A stretch of DNA of 64,000 nucleotides from Candidatus Gastranaerophilales bacterium. GTDB lineage: Bacteria; Cyanobacteriota; Vampirovibrionia; Gastranaerophilales; Gastranaerophilaceae. Where the stretch lies: NCBI GenBank assembly GCA_947594025.1, contig CANQDZ010000002.1:1-64000 (forward strand), in the 5' to 3' direction. Under the pieces are notes generated by a model. It was given only the letters and a program-made list of their open reading frames with translations. It was not told where the DNA came from and did not search any database. The translations under genes and the position numbers were made by a program. This document shows, piece by piece, positions 6,795 to 54,950 of the stretch (positions are counted from its first letter, which is position 1; each line of letters starts with the position of its first letter).

Positions 6795-6824
6795 TTGCCC
6801 TAACTCCTTAACATGTAATATAAT
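6795..6824 (+). promoter_or_regulatory. Promoter of first LuxR-type regulator, predicted leaderless
   Basis: TTGCCC (6795-6800) and a consensus TATAAT (6819-6824) are separated by 18 bases. The ATG follows six bases after the -10 box at 6831, and no ribosome-binding sequence is present. Confidence 0.65.
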
Positions 6825-10458: not shown

Positions 10459-11379
10459 TTATTCTTTATAAAATGCCTCAATGAATCCGCCTAAAATTTT
10501 ACCCGCTAAAAGACCAAAGGAACAAACAGGACAAGATGTAAGCACCTTTTTTGCGCCTGTCTTTTTAATTTGTTTTCTTTTTTTCATCATAAGTTTTAAG
10601 GTAATAATCGGATGAGATAAGAAAAAATCTCCTCCAAATCCGCAGCATTCTTGTGCGGGCAGCGGTATATAATTTTCGCTCCGTTTTAGGGTTTCATTTA
10701 TCTTTGAATATGTCTCATCTGACATATGGCATGGTTTATGATAAGTAAAAGGTTTATTTGGTATTTTAAGTTCAGGCTCAAAGTATAACTTTTCTTCTAT
10801 TGTACGAGGAAGCGGATACTTTTTAAATGTGTCATAACATGTTGCACAGCTAAAAATTATTTTTTTAATTTTTGGGTCTGACGCCATTTTTATATTGTGA
10901 GTCATTAATTTTTCATATACATCAAGTCTGCCTTTTGACAGATATGGCATGGCACAACACTTAAAATCATTTTTATATGATGAAATACAGCCAAAAAAGT
11001 GTATTTCGCCCTCTTTTTCTTTGTATTTTCTTTTAAATACGTTAAACGGAAGCATTTTCAACTTAAAAATAAACTCACTTGATAAAAATCTTTCTAATTT
11101 TGATAAGTTTTTATATTTGAAGTTTGCAAAAATTTTAACAGCATCAATGTTTGAGGGGCAAAAAGATTGGCATTTTCCGCAATTTAAGCACAGGTTCAAA
11201 TTCTTTTTAATTTTTTTGGAAAATTTTAAATCACCGTTTAAAACACCTAAAAGCTGGGTAAATTTACCTCTTGTTAAACTTACTTCGTTTTTTTTAATAT
11301 GAAAAATCGGGCAAACCTCAGCACATATTGCACATCTTGAACATTTTCTTAAATTTTCTTTTAAGTGATTTGCTTCCAT
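10459..11379 (-). CDS. GlcF/HdrD-like Fe-S protein with CCG domains
   Basis: A 306-residue soluble electron-transfer protein. Two N-terminal 4Fe-4S motifs are present, CSRCAICAEVC near residue 13 and CLNCGKCQSFC near 65. Two CCG-like cysteine clusters follow (FSCATCYDT, then QECCGFGGDFF and SCPVCSFGL). This layout matches the Fe-S subunit of glycolate/lactate oxidases or heterodisulfide reductase subunits, which pass electrons between a flavoprotein and a quinone or thiol. No flavoprotein gene lies beside it. The ATG at 11379 is chosen over a frame opening at 11421 because it sits seven bases after a TATACT box and the extra residues overlap the divergent gene. Substrate unknown. Confidence 0.8.
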   Translation of the reverse strand: MEANHLKENLRKCSRCAICAEVCPIFHIKKNEVSLTRGKFTQLLGVLNGDLKFSKKIKKNLNLCLNCGKCQSFCPSNIDAVKIFANFKYKNLSKLERFLSSEFIFKLKMLPFNVFKRKYKEKEGEIHFFGCISSYKNDFKCCAMPYLSKGRLDVYEKLMTHNIKMASDPKIKKIIFSCATCYDTFKKYPLPRTIEEKLYFEPELKIPNKPFTYHKPCHMSDETYSKINETLKRSENYIPLPAQECCGFGGDFFLSHPIITLKLMMKKRKQIKKTGAKKVLTSCPVCSFGLLAGKILGGFIEAFYKE

Positions 11380-11386
11380 ACTTTGT

Positions 11387-11394
11387 AGTATAAT
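11387..11394. promoter_or_regulatory. Overlapping divergent -10 boxes of Fe-S protein and dehydrogenase genes
   Basis: TATAAT on the plus strand (11389-11394) lies six bases before the dehydrogenase ATG at 11401. TATACT on the minus strand (11392-11387) lies seven bases before the Fe-S protein ATG at 11379. The two start codons are only about 21 bases apart, and neither has a ribosome site. The same four central bases serve both promoters. Confidence 0.65.
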
Positions 11395-11400
11395 CCAAAT

Positions 11401-12342
11401 ATGAAAAGAGCTGTATACCAAAATGAAGAAATAAAAATCATTGAATGTAATGTTCCAAAACTAAAAGGACTTGGTGCCGTTATTAAAGTATATGGCTGCG
11501 GATTGTGCGGTTCTGATATTGTAAAAATCAGGGAAAAAAAAGATAATCCGATTTTAGGACACGAAGTTGTCGGCGAAATAATTGAAATAAATTCAAAAAC
11601 AAAATTTAAAGTCGGGGATAAAGTGGCACTCGGTCACCATTTCCCTTGTTTTAAGTGTGAATACTGCAAAAACGGAAGCTATTCAATGTGCGAAGGTTTT
11701 AAATCTACAAACATTGAGCCCTGCGGATTTTCGGAATATATTTATGTGACTGAAGGTCATCTTAAAAATACCGTTTTTAGTGTGCCAAAGAATTTAACGT
11801 ACGAAGAAATATCATTTCTGGAACCGTTATCTTGCGTTGTAAGAGCGGTTGAAAGAGCAGAAATAAAGAAAGGACAAAAGGTTCTTGTATTGGGGCTCGG
11901 TTCAATCGGCAATTTAATGGCGCAAACAACACGCGTTTATGGCGGAAAAGTTTACGGATATGACATAAATGAAGAAAGACAAAAATATTCTAAACTAAAG
12001 TTTGACCCAAATATAAGATATAATGTTATATTTATGACGTCAGGGGCCTCAGCTTCCATTGAAACTGCCCTAAAGTACGTACTTTCAGGCGGTAAAATTG
12101 TTGTATTTGCCTCAGTTAAAGATGAAACAGGTTACATAAATAACGATATTTACTACAGAGAACTAACCGTTCTCGGAAGTTATTCGCCGGCACCTTATGA
12201 TTATAAAATTTCTTATAACCTGTTAAAATCGGGAAAAGTAAAAGTTAAGGGAATGTCGATGAATTATAAGCTTGATGAATTATCTAAAGCTATTCAAGAT
12301 ACAATATCAAATAAAATTATGAAAGCATACATAGAATTATGA
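11401..12342 (+). CDS. Zinc-dependent medium-chain dehydrogenase, first of pair
   Basis: A 313-residue NAD(P)-dependent alcohol/polyol dehydrogenase of the MDR family. The catalytic zinc region is GCGLCGSDIVK with GHEVVGE. Four cysteines in CFKCEYCKNGSYSMC (about residues 81-95) form the structural zinc site. The Rossmann motif is VLGLGSIGN. It is somewhat shorter than the usual 340-350 residues, with a trimmed nucleotide-binding half. The start is leaderless, six bases after TATAAT. The stop overlaps the next dehydrogenase by ATGA. Threonine- or sorbitol-dehydrogenase-like activity is plausible; the actual substrate cannot be read from sequence. Confidence 0.86.
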   Translation: MKRAVYQNEEIKIIECNVPKLKGLGAVIKVYGCGLCGSDIVKIREKKDNPILGHEVVGEIIEINSKTKFKVGDKVALGHHFPCFKCEYCKNGSYSMCEGFKSTNIEPCGFSEYIYVTEGHLKNTVFSVPKNLTYEEISFLEPLSCVVRAVERAEIKKGQKVLVLGLGSIGNLMAQTTRVYGGKVYGYDINEERQKYSKLKFDPNIRYNVIFMTSGASASIETALKYVLSGGKIVVFASVKDETGYINNDIYYRELTVLGSYSPAPYDYKISYNLLKSGKVKVKGMSMNYKLDELSKAIQDTISNKIMKAYIEL

Positions 12343-15022: not shown

Positions 15023-15640
15023 TTAATTAAAATCAATTGTTTGAATTAAATCGCGCACAATCTTTTCTGAAAACTTGTTTGTTCCCCTAAAACTTAATAT
15101 TGCTATTTGATTTTTATTTTTGCTTTCCCCGACTATATTGTGAAACCCGATAAATCCTGATATTTCTTGCTTTAAGGGCTTTTCAATCGTGATTGTAAAA
15201 TCAGCAAAATGAATATCTTTACCTTTTATTTTTAAAGTTCCCAAGTTACTTATTTTAATGTTATTTATTGAAATACCTTTAATGTTATTGTTCTCCATAA
15301 AATTTTGAAGGTTTTCATTTGCAATTGTATTATTTAAGTCTTCTTCGGATATACCTTTATTTTCAGGCAATTTTACAAATCTGATTTTTTGTCCTGACGG
15401 TTTATGAGTAACCGTCATTTTACTGTAATTCGGAAGTTTTAGAGTTCTTCCGATTTGATAATCACTTTCAACACCGTTTAGGTCGCCAAAAACTTTTGCG
15501 GATTTAATTACAACCTCTCTTGGCGGATTTTGATATCTTTTATATAAATCGCTTACAATTTTTGCTCCCCCGAAATAGAAAAATGCGATAATAAGCGCCA
15601 GAGCAAATATCTTCATAAACAGCTTTTTTAAACAACCCAT
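15023..15640 (-). CDS. Membrane-anchored protein of unknown function
   Basis: Not recognised. A 205-residue protein with one N-terminal membrane segment (about 8-24) and a probably extracytoplasmic domain with alternating hydrophobic residues and few cysteines. The C-terminal region FIGFHNIVGESKNKNQIAIL is its most structured-looking part. The start at 15640 is chosen because AGGGG lies about 7 bases upstream and the hydrophobic segment begins soon after; the frame is open further upstream to 15673 but would run into the mutS start. It shares a divergent promoter with mutS. Confidence 0.65.
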   Translation of the reverse strand: MGCLKKLFMKIFALALIIAFFYFGGAKIVSDLYKRYQNPPREVVIKSAKVFGDLNGVESDYQIGRTLKLPNYSKMTVTHKPSGQKIRFVKLPENKGISEEDLNNTIANENLQNFMENNNIKGISINNIKISNLGTLKIKGKDIHFADFTITIEKPLKQEISGFIGFHNIVGESKNKNQIAILSFRGTNKFSEKIVRDLIQTIDFN

Positions 15641-15656
15641 TTCATGCCCCTTTTTT

Positions 15657-15666
15657 ATTATATAAT
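15657..15666. promoter_or_regulatory. Palindromic bidirectional -10 (ATTATATAAT) for mutS and divergent gene
   Basis: The 10-base palindrome ATTATATAAT contains TATAAT on the plus strand (15661-15666), seven bases before the mutS ATG. It also contains TATAAT on the minus strand (15662-15657), 16 bases before the divergent ATG at 15640. The identical palindrome recurs at 53134-53143 between dnaX and its divergent neighbour. Confidence 0.65.
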
Positions 15667-15673
15667 ATAACAA

Positions 15674-18034
15674 ATGATATCAATTTATCAAAATATTTTT
15701 GAATTAAAAAATATCAAATTGCCTGAAACTTTGGCAGATTATGTAAAAATTAAATTAGAAAATAAAGACTGCGTTGTTTTGTTTCAAATAGGCGAATTTT
15801 ATGAGGCATACTTGGAAGATGCAAAAATTTTATCCGAGGCATGCTCTATTTATCTGACGACAAAAAAGATAAAATCGGGCTCTTTAATTATGGCCGGTAT
15901 TCCTTCCAAAAGCTTGGAAGAATACGTGGTAAAACTTGTTGATTTTGATTATAAAGTTCTTGTTTGCAATCAAAAAGAAGAAAATAACAAAATAAAAAGA
16001 GAGATAAAAAGAATTTATTCAAAAGGAATGATTTTTGAAGATAACCTTTTAAATTCTTCGAAAAATAATTATATTGTTTCAATTTTTAAAGATAAAAACC
16101 TTGTGGGTCTTGCAAAAGCAGATATTTCGACGGGAGAATTCAGCACATGTGAAGGAAGTTTAAACGAAATTTTAAACGAACTCAAAATAATTGAGCCTTC
16201 CGAATTGCTTATCCCCGTTAAAACAAGGGAGACAAAGGCTTTTCAGGTTATAGATGAACCCAAGCCCGATATTGATGCCGATTTTTCAAATTTTAATGTC
16301 ACTCTGGTTAAAAAATCTTCCTTCAGCAGCTCTTTAATTAAGAGTGAAAATCTTGGATATAAATGCGTAAACGCGATATTAGAGTATTCAAAACTTACAA
16401 ATAAAGAATTTGCCCCAAAAATCGGAAAAATCAAAAGATATAACTTAAATGATTATTTAACAATTGATGAAACGGCTTCCTTAAATCTTGAACTTTTCAA
16501 AACGACGGATAATAAATACAAGGGCTCTTTTCTTTGGGCGATTGATAATACATTGACACCAATGGGAAAAAGACTTTTAATTAATTGGATAAAAAAACCT
16601 TTAAGGAATATTAAGAGGATAGAAACAAGGCAAAACGCGCTTGAAGAATATAAAAATTCAAACAATATTTCAAATATTCAAAATGCGCTTAAAAACTGTT
16701 ATGACATCAAACGACTGTGGGGTAAATTAACCGGCAAAACACTTTCAATAAAGGATTTTATATCTTTAAAAAATACAATTAAGCAATGTTTTATTCTTGG
16801 CGAATACACAAAAAACTTTAATAACGGCTTGATAAAATTTGATTTAGAGGTTTTGCAGAATTTAAAATCTCTCCTTGAAATTTTAGATAACAGTTTGCAG
16901 GATGAAGAAGACGGCGAAATATTTAAAGAGGGTGCAAACACTCATCTTGATTTGATAAAAAAAGATATCGAAAAATATTATTTGGAAATCAAAAAATATG
17001 AAGAAAAAGAAAAAGAAAAAACGGGAATTAAATCTCTAAAAATTATTGAAAATAAGATTTTAGGTTATTTTATTGAAGTGGGCAGCAAAAATATCTTAAA
17101 TGTTCCCGATTATTTTAAGATAAGACAAAATATGCTTAATTCTTCAAGATACACAACGGATGAACTTGTTATATTGAATGAAAAAATTAACTCTTTAATG
17201 TATCGAAAAATGAACGCCGAGAAAGAAATCTTAAACGGGCTAAAAGAATTTATACTCGGTTTTGCGGATGATATTTATGAACTCGGTAACAAGCTTGCTT
17301 CTCTTGATGTCATAAATTCATTTTACATAACTTCTGAGGGAAAAGATTTTGTAAAACCTGAATTTAATGACTTAAAAACCTTAAAATTTACAGCCTTAAA
17401 ACATCCTCTGTCCCCTATGATATTTGAAAATTATATTCCTAATGATTTTAAAGTTGAAGATCTAAGACGATTTAAGCTCTTAACGGGACCTAACATGGCA
17501 GGTAAGTCAACATATATGAAATCTATTGCACTAAATATTATATTGGCGCAAATGGGTTCTTATACTTGCGCTTCAAAGTTTGAGAGCATTTTATTTGACA
17601 GGATTTTCGTACATTCAAAATCGGAAGACTATATAAACAAAGGTAAGTCAACTTTTATGTCTGAAATGTGCGACGTCAAAGAAATTGTTGAAAATGCAAC
17701 CGACGAGAGCTTTATTATTTTTGACGAGCTTGCAAAGGGGACATCCACATCCGATGGTCTTAAACTTGCGTTTGGAATATCAAAATATGTTATTGACAAC
17801 ATAAATGCGATAACGATTTTTGCAACACATTTTCATAAATTAAAAGCCTTAAAGGAAAGGTATCCTGATAAAGTTCAAAATTTAATGATTGGTGAAAATT
17901 TCAATCTTGAAGAAAAAATATTTGACAGACATGTTAAAGAGGGCTTTTTAAACGAAAGTTACGGAATAAATGTCGCACGTGCGGTTAATCTGCCTTATGA
18001 AATAATTAAGCAGGCTTGCGATTTTGAGGTATAA
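15674..18034 (+). CDS. mutS: DNA mismatch repair protein MutS
   Basis: A 786-residue mismatch-recognition ATPase. The N-terminal clamp has LFQIGEFYEAY, carrying the Phe-x-Glu mismatch-reading motif of MutS1. The core and lever domains (about 250-550) lead into the ATPase: Walker A TGPNMAGKSTYMKS near 605, Walker B FIIFDELAKGTSTSDG near 685, then FATHFHKL. It ends soon after GINVARAVNLP and lacks the C-terminal tetramerisation extension of the 850-residue enzymes. The gene is predicted leaderless. Its stop codon lies inside the -10 box of queD. mutL is not in the window. Confidence 0.93.
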   Translation: MISIYQNIFELKNIKLPETLADYVKIKLENKDCVVLFQIGEFYEAYLEDAKILSEACSIYLTTKKIKSGSLIMAGIPSKSLEEYVVKLVDFDYKVLVCNQKEENNKIKREIKRIYSKGMIFEDNLLNSSKNNYIVSIFKDKNLVGLAKADISTGEFSTCEGSLNEILNELKIIEPSELLIPVKTRETKAFQVIDEPKPDIDADFSNFNVTLVKKSSFSSSLIKSENLGYKCVNAILEYSKLTNKEFAPKIGKIKRYNLNDYLTIDETASLNLELFKTTDNKYKGSFLWAIDNTLTPMGKRLLINWIKKPLRNIKRIETRQNALEEYKNSNNISNIQNALKNCYDIKRLWGKLTGKTLSIKDFISLKNTIKQCFILGEYTKNFNNGLIKFDLEVLQNLKSLLEILDNSLQDEEDGEIFKEGANTHLDLIKKDIEKYYLEIKKYEEKEKEKTGIKSLKIIENKILGYFIEVGSKNILNVPDYFKIRQNMLNSSRYTTDELVILNEKINSLMYRKMNAEKEILNGLKEFILGFADDIYELGNKLASLDVINSFYITSEGKDFVKPEFNDLKTLKFTALKHPLSPMIFENYIPNDFKVEDLRRFKLLTGPNMAGKSTYMKSIALNIILAQMGSYTCASKFESILFDRIFVHSKSEDYINKGKSTFMSEMCDVKEIVENATDESFIIFDELAKGTSTSDGLKLAFGISKYVIDNINAITIFATHFHKLKALKERYPDKVQNLMIGENFNLEEKIFDRHVKEGFLNESYGINVARAVNLPYEIIKQACDFEV

Positions 18035-37316: not shown

Positions 37317-37322
37317 TATAAT
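37317..37322 (+). promoter_or_regulatory. obgE extended -10 box, predicted leaderless
   Basis: TGATATAAT (37314-37322) is a TGn-extended consensus -10. The obgE ATG begins six bases later at 37329, and there is no ribosome site. Confidence 0.65.
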
Positions 37323-52239: not shown

Positions 52240-53115
52240 CTAATCAAAATAAATAATCATGTCATCCGTATTAAAGTGAGCTTTTTTACCTACGGGGACC
52301 GTTGTATTTGTTTTAAGATGCGTGATTGGATAACCAAAAATACAAGGTACGTCAACTTTTTTTGCAAAATCACTTAATACATCTTGAAGTTTATTTTTAT
52401 CATCAACATACAAGAAATCGCCTAAAATAATGCCTTTTATCCTTCTTTTTAAACGTTCATTTCTATATATTTGAGTAAGCATTCTGTCTATTTTATATAC
52501 AGGTTCATTCAAATCTTCCAAGAATAAGATAATATCCTCGGAGGGAATATAGGAACCCGATAAGGAACCGAACAGGGACACGAGAGTGGATAAATTTCCG
52601 CCCCAAAGGATGCCTTTTGCTTCTCCTTCTTTTAAAACAATTGCGTTTTTCTTTGGTTTTATTTCTTTTTTATTGTTATTTACGGTTTTTACAAAATCTT
52701 CAAATGTTTTTTTATTAAATTTACCGTCGCCTGAAAGCATAGGTGAATGAAAGGTTTCAAACCCGACTATTCTGTTTATTTGTAAAAGAAGTGCGGTTAT
52801 GTCAGAACTTCCCGCAAAAATTTTAGGGTTTTTGATTAATTTTTGATAGCTTATCTCATCCAAAATCCGTATACTTCCATATCCGCCTCTAACGCAGATT
52901 ATTGCTTTTACACAGGGGTCTTCAAAGGCTTGTTCCAGTTCTAAAACCTTGTGTTTATCGGTTTGTTCATTAAAATAACAACCGTCAAATATTTTGACGT
53001 TATAACCCATATTTTTTATAAAATCTTTAACTTCGTCTAATTCTTTTACGTCTTTAATCTGGCTTGAAGGCGAGATGACGCCGATTGTGTCGTTTTTGTT
53101 AAGCATAAATCTCAT
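52240..53115 (-). CDS. LD-carboxypeptidase (S66 family)
   Basis: A 291-residue cytoplasmic serine carboxypeptidase that trims the terminal D-alanine of murein tetrapeptides during recycling. The catalytic Ser lies in FAGSSDITALLLQ, Glu in LFLEDLNEPVYKIDRML and His in FGYPITHLKTN, as in LdcA. Additional conserved elements are GVISPSS at the N-terminus and CVRGGYGSIRILD. The ATG at 53115 has an AAAGGAAAA site. It shares a palindromic -10 with the divergent dnaX. Confidence 0.92.
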   Translation of the reverse strand: MRFMLNKNDTIGVISPSSQIKDVKELDEVKDFIKNMGYNVKIFDGCYFNEQTDKHKVLELEQAFEDPCVKAIICVRGGYGSIRILDEISYQKLIKNPKIFAGSSDITALLLQINRIVGFETFHSPMLSGDGKFNKKTFEDFVKTVNNNKKEIKPKKNAIVLKEGEAKGILWGGNLSTLVSLFGSLSGSYIPSEDIILFLEDLNEPVYKIDRMLTQIYRNERLKRRIKGIILGDFLYVDDKNKLQDVLSDFAKKVDVPCIFGYPITHLKTNTTVPVGKKAHFNTDDMIIYFD

Positions 53116-53133
53116 AGCATTTTCCTTTGTTTT

Positions 53134-53143
53134 ATTATATAAT
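53134..53143. promoter_or_regulatory. Palindromic bidirectional -10 (ATTATATAAT) for dnaX and LD-carboxypeptidase gene
   Basis: ATTATATAAT gives TATAAT on both strands (plus 53138-53143, minus 53139-53134). It is the same decamer as at 15657-15666. The divergent start codons are 53154 and 53115, only 38 bases apart. The plus start comes 10 bases after its -10, so the leader would be only a few bases. Confidence 0.65.
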
Positions 53144-53153
53144 ATCTCTTAAG

Positions 53154-54950
53154 ATGATACAAGAATATTTACCGTTTTTCAGAAAATACAGACCTCAATC
53201 CTTCAAGGATATCGTTGGGCAAGAAAGCCTTGTAAAAACGCTTACGGGTGCAATTGAACTGAATAGAATTTCCCATGCATACCTTTTTTGCGGTCCGAGA
53301 GGAACAGGAAAGACTTCAACCGCAAGAATTTTTGCAAAATCCTTAAATTGCGAACATGGTCCCACAATTGAACCATGCCAGACATGCTCAAGCTGTGTGG
53401 AAATTACAAACGGTAACGGCATGGATGTTATAGAAATTGATGCTGCAACCAATCGCGGGATAGAAGATGCTAAAAATTTAATCGAACAAACTCAATATGC
53501 CCCAATCAAAGGTAAATATAAAATCTTTATTATAGACGAAGTTCATATGCTTTCAAAAGAAGCCTTCAATGCTCTTTTAAAAACAATCGAAGAACCGCCT
53601 AAAAATGTAATCTTCATTCTTGCAACGACGGAACCTCATAAAGTGCTTGAAACAATCGTGAGCCGTTGTCAGAGATTTGATTTAAGAAGAATTACAACAA
53701 AAGACATCGTAAAAAAATTAAGAGAAGTTTCTGACCTTGAAAAAATCAAAATAACGGATGATGCTCTTTTCATGATTGCAAATAATGTTTCAGGCGGGCT
53801 GAGAGATTCTTTGGCGCTTTTGGATCAGGTAAGCATTTTAGGTTTAAAAGAAGAAATTACAAAAGAAACAATTGAAAATATAATAGGTAAAATCACGTTT
53901 AATACCTTGTTTGAAATTTTATCCGCAATATATGATAAAGACCTTAACAGAACAATGGATTTAATAAATAATGTATATTCAAATGGGGCAGAGCCGAGAA
54001 ATTTTACTGAAAATTTCATTGAATTTTTAAGAAACGTAATTATCGTTTTAAATACAAAAAACACATCAAAGCTTGATTATGTAAACCTTAATGAAAACGA
54101 AACGGAAAAGCTTAAAAGTCTTAATTATGATAAAAATACAATTGTTAAATACATTGAAAAAACAACGGAGCTTTATAAGGATATAAGATATTCCAAGAAT
54201 CCTTATTTAATGCTTGAAATCCTGCTTGTAGAGTTATGCGGAATTGACGCACTTTCAAATAACGGCGGTGCGGTTAAAAGCGAACCCATGAAAAAAGAAG
54301 ATATCAAAAAGCCGGAAATAAAGAAAACTGAAGAAACTGCTGTTAAAAAACAAGAAACAACGGAAGAAAAAGAAACTGAAATTAAAGCTGTTAATGAACC
54401 TATTATACACGAAGAAGAAAAACAGAAAGAACCCCGGGCAAGAGATGATATTAAACCACAAGTGACGGTTAGTCCGACAGCTTCCGATAAGCAGGAATTG
54501 TGGGATACAATTATAAATTCGATTTCAAGCATGCCTGCAAAATGCTTCTTTGCAAACCTTGCAAGGCTTGTTGAAATAAATGAAAAATATGTTAAAATCG
54601 GATTTTTACATCAGACAGGCATTAAACAAGCAGAATCAGCACTTAAGATAAATCCTTTAAAAGCGGCGCTAAGTGCGCATTTTGACCATGAGGTTGAAGT
54701 GAGATATATTTTCTTAGCTCAAGATAGCAACGAATATATCAAGGGAAATCTTCAAAGAGGACAATATGCGCCAAAACCAAAAAAGACATTTGAACCTAAA
54801 ATGCAAACGGCACCCGCTTTTGAAGAAAACAATGTTAATACGGAAAATGAAGAAGATGAAAAAGAAAAAAAGTCTAATGACAGTTACAGCTTTTTAACGG
54901 GAAAAACCAAGGAAATTGTGGAGAGCTTCAACGGTAAAGTTATAGACTAA
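53154..54950 (+). CDS. dnaX: DNA polymerase III subunit gamma/tau
   Basis: A 598-residue clamp-loader ATPase. Walker A FCGPRGTGKTSTARIF, a zinc module CEHG...CQTCSSC, Walker B IFIIDEVHMLSKEAF and the SRC sensor (TIVSRCQRFD) define the AAA+ core (1-220). The middle and C-terminal parts include a Lys/Glu-rich region (about 385-455) and a tau-like domain. The ATG at 53154 matches the family start (YLPFFRKYRPQSF); a longer frame from 53127 spans the promoter and is rejected. The gene lies opposite an LD-carboxypeptidase gene across a palindromic -10. Confidence 0.95.
   Translation: MIQEYLPFFRKYRPQSFKDIVGQESLVKTLTGAIELNRISHAYLFCGPRGTGKTSTARIFAKSLNCEHGPTIEPCQTCSSCVEITNGNGMDVIEIDAATNRGIEDAKNLIEQTQYAPIKGKYKIFIIDEVHMLSKEAFNALLKTIEEPPKNVIFILATTEPHKVLETIVSRCQRFDLRRITTKDIVKKLREVSDLEKIKITDDALFMIANNVSGGLRDSLALLDQVSILGLKEEITKETIENIIGKITFNTLFEILSAIYDKDLNRTMDLINNVYSNGAEPRNFTENFIEFLRNVIIVLNTKNTSKLDYVNLNENETEKLKSLNYDKNTIVKYIEKTTELYKDIRYSKNPYLMLEILLVELCGIDALSNNGGAVKSEPMKKEDIKKPEIKKTEETAVKKQETTEEKETEIKAVNEPIIHEEEKQKEPRARDDIKPQVTVSPTASDKQELWDTIINSISSMPAKCFFANLARLVEINEKYVKIGFLHQTGIKQAESALKINPLKAALSAHFDHEVEVRYIFLAQDSNEYIKGNLQRGQYAPKPKKTFEPKMQTAPAFEENNVNTENEEDEKEKKSNDSYSFLTGKTKEIVESFNGKVID

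Follow-up and report, generated by a model that had tools for sequence, protein, structure and literature searches.

The palindromic decamer ATTATATAAT occurs exactly twice in the window, i.e., in the whole 64-kb stretch of DNA analyzed here, at positions 15657-15666 and 53134-53143, and both copies lie in divergent intergenic gaps. We consider it probable that these decamers are the cores of sigma70-type bidirectional promoters, and that they represent one solution in a genome-wide packing of leaderless-type divergent genes. The decamer would be one of several ways in which Gastranaerophilales fit two back-to-back genes on a tiny piece of DNA, the tightest taking 14 bases. This last form, CATGnTAnnATnnTAnCATG, is one that we are slightly inclined to regard as a minimal 14-bp bidirectional leaderless promoter, organized around one dyad, in which each start codon would be the extended -10 of the divergent gene on the opposite strand. 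It would be widespread in the Gastranaerophilales family and account for about one tenth of the divergent pairs sampled in one species.

The first copy separates mutS (15674-18034, plus strand; NCBIfam NF003810, 644.8 bits) from ORF205 (15023-15640, minus strand), an open reading frame of 205 amino acids with its start ATG at 15640, for which no match was found in Pfam or NCBIfam. The product of ORF205 has a hydrophobic N-terminus (MGCLKKLFMKIFALALIIAFFYFGG); the frame is divergent to mutS here, and relatives of it lie beside mutS in several genomes of the family. The second copy separates dnaX (53154-54950, plus strand; identified as DnaX) from ldcA (52240-53115, minus strand), which encodes an LD-carboxypeptidase (peptidase S66; Pfam PF02016 and PF17676). 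The preliminary description had both the coordinates and the gene names right, and its reading of TATAAT on both strands is exact: at each site two perfect hexamers of opposite orientation overlap, with the central TATA in common. Moreover, the identity between the two sites extends beyond the decamer to a 16-mer, TTTTATTATATAATAT, at 15653-15668 and 53130-53145. Reciprocal overlap of -10 elements on opposite strands, by which Warman et al. recognize bidirectional promoters, is found at both.

If +1 is taken to lie 7 nt after the -10, the geometry of ATTATATAAT places the two predicted start sites 23 bp apart. On the plus strand, the predicted -10 of mutS (15661-15666) ends 7 nt before the ATG, with a predicted +1 at 15673 and a leader of 1 nt, while that of ORF205 (15657-15662, minus strand) would direct initiation at 15650, leaving a leader of about 10 nt. 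Likewise, the predicted -10 of dnaX (53138-53143, plus strand) lies 10 nt before the ATG and would give a leader of 4 nt, an alternative -10, TAATAT, being present at 53140-53145 on the same strand. For ldcA, the TATAAT at 53134-53139 (minus strand) predicts a +1 at 53127 and a leader of about 12 nt, in which AAGGAAA would be the Shine-Dalgarno sequence, and TTGTAT at 53162-53157 on the minus strand is a possible -35, with a spacing of 17 bp. The short or absent leaders proposed beforehand are in line with these predictions. On this basis dnaX would be near-leaderless, whereas ldcA and ORF205 would not be leaderless, so that the decamer appears to pair one gene that is leaderless or nearly so with another that has a leader; the gap at recA, described below, looks alike. 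Two features count against a shared promoter: neither mutS nor dnaX shows a clear -35, and the TG of an extended -10 is absent at both decamers of the window.

Compact arrangements of this kind are not restricted to the decamer. A divergent gap of 21 bp (11380-11400), tighter than either decamer gap, contains overlapping -10 elements at 11387-11394, with TATAAT at 11389-11394 on the plus strand, 6 nt before the ATG at 11401, and TATACT at 11392-11387 on the minus strand, 7 nt before the ATG at 11379. Furthermore, TATAAT stands exactly 6 nt before the start codon of three leaderless-type genes of the plus strand, at 387-392, 6819-6824 and 37317-37322 (start codons at 399, 6831 and 37329, respectively).

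These genes would belong to a large leaderless-type class in the lineage, in which 6 nt separate the end of the -10 from the start codon, so that +1 would fall on the A of the ATG. In the host genome (G000, 1.51 Mb), the start codon is preceded by TANNAT at a distance of exactly 6 nt in 55 of 397 lead genes and of 7 nt in 20, against about nine per position elsewhere, and no comparable peak exists inside operons. Shine-Dalgarno-like sites are found in only 3 of the 82 genes with a -10 at 5-8 nt but in 168 of the 315 other lead genes. Genomes G001 and G006 present the same pattern. In G063, a genome of 47% GC, TANNAT lies at exactly 6 nt in 56 of 329 lead genes, and Shine-Dalgarno-like sites occur in 1 of 71 genes versus 120 of the 258 other lead genes. 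A TANNNT motif that precedes the start codon by about 10-12 bp, without a Shine-Dalgarno site, is an accepted sequence signature of leaderless genes (PMC3160421), and in Deinococcus the -10 adjoins the open reading frame in leaderless genes (PMC12340547). The TATAAT of mutS, ending at 7 nt, and the class, with its peak at 6 nt, have their -10-like signal at this distance, and the Shine-Dalgarno site is absent from the class as such in both G000 and G063. Many genes of the Gastranaerophilales family would therefore seem, judging by their sequence, to be of the leaderless type. The assignment to Candidatus Gastranaerophilales follows the named relatives in a DnaX alignment, Vampirovibrio coming next. 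In the literature searched, we found no paper reporting leaderless genes in Gastranaerophilales.

The decamer itself is enriched where such packing would be expected. By itself the window is weak evidence, as its dinucleotide shuffles contain a mean of 0.32 copies of ATTATATAAT and 5 out of 100 reach two or more, which makes chance a possibility. Over the whole host genome, 17 copies are counted versus 6 of the reversed palindrome of equal composition, and in 146 genomes of the family 3792 versus 2487. Genes were called over 807 kb of the host genome, a sample that takes in all 17 copies, by means of a simple in-house caller that relies on codon usage and start-codon type only and is blind to promoter and Shine-Dalgarno signals. 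Eight copies are located in divergent gaps, seven in coding sequence and two in tandem gaps; five of the eight are in gaps longer than 100 bp, where sharing is not forced, which counts against the shared promoter. In the 20 divergent gaps shorter than 60 bp there are three copies, compared with 0.04 expected from gap-wise dinucleotide shuffles, so that the enrichment anticipated for divergent gaps of less than 60 bases is borne out, albeit with small numbers. The degenerate register ATNNTANNAT is present in 14 of these 20 gaps against 2.0 expected. In addition, an antisense -10 in the register of the decamer is found in 26 of 34 cases in short divergent gaps versus 40 of 87 beside other leaderless genes (p = 0.004). 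The third short-gap copy lies between recA and a gene of the DAHP-synthase family (L080:9089-9136), the latter presumably KdsA-like; the three copies in gaps below 60 bp thus adjoin mutS, dnaX and recA.

The comparison with relatives bears on whether the decamer is an inherited entity. Within the genus the comparison involves one genome, G001. In its dnaX gap ATTATATAAT is kept whole, while in its mutS gap the plus-strand TATAAT and the 7-nt spacing are kept and the minus half is altered (GTAATATAAT). The divergent ldcA-dnaX pair is present in 16 of the 17 other genomes of the order for which the dnaX start could be placed, a pairing kept without evident functional reason. Among the relatives examined other than G001, ATTATATAAT was not seen upstream of dnaX, and the divergent gap carries -10 elements arranged differently. 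A single conserved decamer type was accordingly considered and rejected, since half of the palindrome is broken at mutS in G001 and the dnaX copy is kept in G001 only. The exact decamer appears, from this comparison, to be one of several packing registers and no discrete inherited type. As for the recurring compact divergent-promoter type put forward in the preliminary description, its first half stands, in that compact shared -10 elements recur in the genome and in the family; the decamer as the conserved form of that type does not. Also in this order, the sample of G017 is of 17% GC, yielded hardly any callable genes under table 11 and a weak MutS match, and was uninformative as a further relative; the genetic code or the gene content of this genome may depart from the usual.

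For two divergent genes to be served over a very short gap, their -10 elements would have to overlap, and only certain registers would fit, namely those with start sites 23 bp apart (that of the decamer, corresponding to a gap of 22 bp when neither gene has a leader), 18 bp apart or 15 bp apart (a 14-bp gap). Across the 146 genomes of the family, one pattern was counted for each register, all three having the same number of fixed bases and each being controlled by its reverse: the 14-bp gap pattern occurs 196 times versus 38, the 22-bp pattern of the decamer's register 153 versus 22, and the 17-bp pattern 84 versus 32, ratios that are approximate because the reversed controls turn ATG into GTA. 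Outside the family, in about 160 genomes of the same phylum, the 14-bp pattern is counted 16 times against 20 for the control, and in 21 further genomes, nearly all unrelated, it is likewise at control level. If one strand had a TG extended -10 in the 23-bp register, the opposite hexamer would become TANCAT, and a symmetric TATAAT/TATAAT would thus give up the TG on both sides. The decamer would be the symmetric solution devoid of an extended -10, while no such conflict would arise in the 15-bp register.

The 14-bp unit is best illustrated by G063, in which 21 sites have exactly 14 bp between divergent start codons, all of them different in sequence. Their gene pairs (L180-L199, e.g., L193:2001-2020) include tsaD/obgE and radical-SAM/uvrC. 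At 15 of the 21 sites the gene caller, which uses no promoter information, placed the starts of both neighbours precisely at the site. Furthermore, 19 of 20 proteins from ten of these pairs match Pfam, and several domains begin no more than seven residues into the called protein (residue 1 for GltX, 3 for both Obg and HMGL-like, 7 for PGM), which lends support to those gene starts. In about 600 kb of contigs from this genome, 8 of 81 divergent gaps measure exactly 14 bp, and every other length under 45 bp occurs at most twice; the fraction is approximate, because contigs C26 and C41 were partly picked for holding sites and the rest mostly by number.

Promoters of the extended -10 (TGn) kind carry TG at -15/-14. 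The leaderless promoter consensus in G063, TTYATGnTAnAATn6ATG, is an extended -10 of this kind, and the TG is present in 12 of the 16 tandem leaderless cases from that genome. CATG is found at both ends of 17 of the 21 sites. At a distance of 14 bp, positions -17 to -15 are occupied by the CAT of the neighbour and position -14 by the G that follows, which means that the start codon of one gene forms the YAT and TG of the other's promoter. TG precedes TANNAT at -15/-14 both in extended -10 promoters and in the 14-bp gaps; unlike in the former generally, in the latter the TG arises from the neighbour's start codon, read as its complement, together with one G. In mechanistic terms, the extended -10 TG of each gene would come from the CAT of the opposite start codon and the G after it, and 14 bp plus the genes' own start codons would serve both. 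We found no published description of this 14-bp register.

The pair formed by rarA (mgsA) and a solute-binding-protein gene carries the 14-bp unit both in G000 (L093:13715-13734) and in G001 (L111 17746-17765), the two versions differing by four substitutions, all at free positions. The rarA of G063 has another partner (eIF2B-like) at the same 14-bp distance. When RarA orthologues were picked by protein and not by pattern, about 24 of 30 were found to have TANNAT at the 6-nt distance, 14 of them through pattern matching and the others through reading by eye, and CATG or TATG lies upstream even where the neighbour seems to start farther off. The sequences suggest a history in which the extended -10 would have arisen first, a divergent gene having later taken its antisense ATG as start.

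Other explanations deserve to be weighed. At 34% GC, palindromic TATA-like decamers occur anyway, preferentially in intergenic regions, and the decamers might be a product of this AT-rich background alone. The shuffles of the window that reach two copies and the seven of 17 copies in coding sequence are compatible with such a view. It nevertheless accounts poorly for the excess of ATTATATAAT over its reversed counterpart in the host and in the family, for its accumulation in short divergent gaps and, above all, for a 14-bp register that is strongest in a genome of 47% GC and at control level in the rest of the phylum and in unrelated genomes; we thus regard it as improbable for the decamers, and as largely refuted for the promoter class as a whole. 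That the palindrome is the operator of a dimeric regulator of the DNA-repair and replication genes mutS, dnaX and recA seems very unlikely to us. The company of these three genes and the perfect dyad would suit an operator, but the dyad is already accounted for by two TATAATs, and the remaining copies are found beside unrelated genes or within coding sequence. Such a regulon was rejected as the primary reading on the grounds that degenerate versions retain the positions of the -10 elements and not the dyad.

More serious, although still unlikely, is a promoter working in one direction, in which TATAAT would drive mutS and dnaX only, the palindrome being a by-product, and ORF205 and ldcA would depend on other -10 elements. 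The altered minus half at mutS in G001, where the plus -10 is kept, is what such a promoter would leave, and an antisense TANNNT at the same offset is also frequent beside tandem leaderless genes (51%). Yet the gaps are too small to leave much room for another minus-strand -10, the dnaX decamer is whole in G001, and short divergent gaps more often hold antisense elements matching at least 5/6 (14 of 34 versus 15 of 87, p = 0.009). The bidirectional promoter core remains our preferred reading: RNA polymerase would bind the decamer in either orientation, with transcripts starting about 23 bp apart.

Two known and separate themes, symmetric bidirectional promoters and leaderless mRNAs, would thereby be merged into a minimal unit with almost no room for other control. 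One prediction is that changing one start codon would alter the promoter of the other gene, promoter and coding sequence constraining each other. The data also point to leaderless expression as a common trait of the non-photosynthetic sisters of cyanobacteria, and suggest that the distance from -10 to ATG should be used when start sites are annotated in them.

With respect to known systems, the TA-led genes of the literature, including those of Deinococcus, resemble those of Gastranaerophilales in the distance of the -10 and in the lack of a Shine-Dalgarno signal; that literature is silent on Melainabacteria and on divergent arrangements, whereas divergent pairs are seen here (PMC3160421; PMC12340547). 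The bidirectional promoters of Warman et al. (2021), as relayed in PMC10268837 and PMC12825309, have near-symmetric -10 elements on both strands and start sites 7-25 bp apart. In Escherichia coli, divergent starts are most often 18 bp apart, 10 and 23 bp being also common (PMC12825309; see also PMC10268837). That symmetric bidirectional promoters were known in prokaryotes, as the preliminary description stated, is thus correct even for the 23-bp spacing, and principle and spacing are not new. As far as the relayed account goes, the decamer shares with these promoters a symmetric -10 serving both strands, and its predicted 23 bp is among the published preferred spacings; taken alone, it is a further example of a known promoter kind. 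Nor should it be assumed that two genes are locked together by one melting site, given that in E. coli basal transcription in one direction hardly affects the other, with competition only when one side is strongly activated (PMC12825309). No title joining leaderless genes with bacterial bidirectional promoters was found in our literature search, and PMC12825309 makes no mention of leaderless mRNAs. In Gastranaerophilales, pattern counts are higher for the 15-bp and 23-bp registers than for the 18-bp one, whereas 18 bp is the commonest in E. coli (PMC12825309). Finally, and in contrast to the promoters of Warman et al. as relayed in those two papers, both mRNAs are here predicted to be able to be leaderless and the start codons would be part of the unit, so that the family-wide leaderless bidirectional architecture, above all in its 14-bp form, would constitute a new variant.
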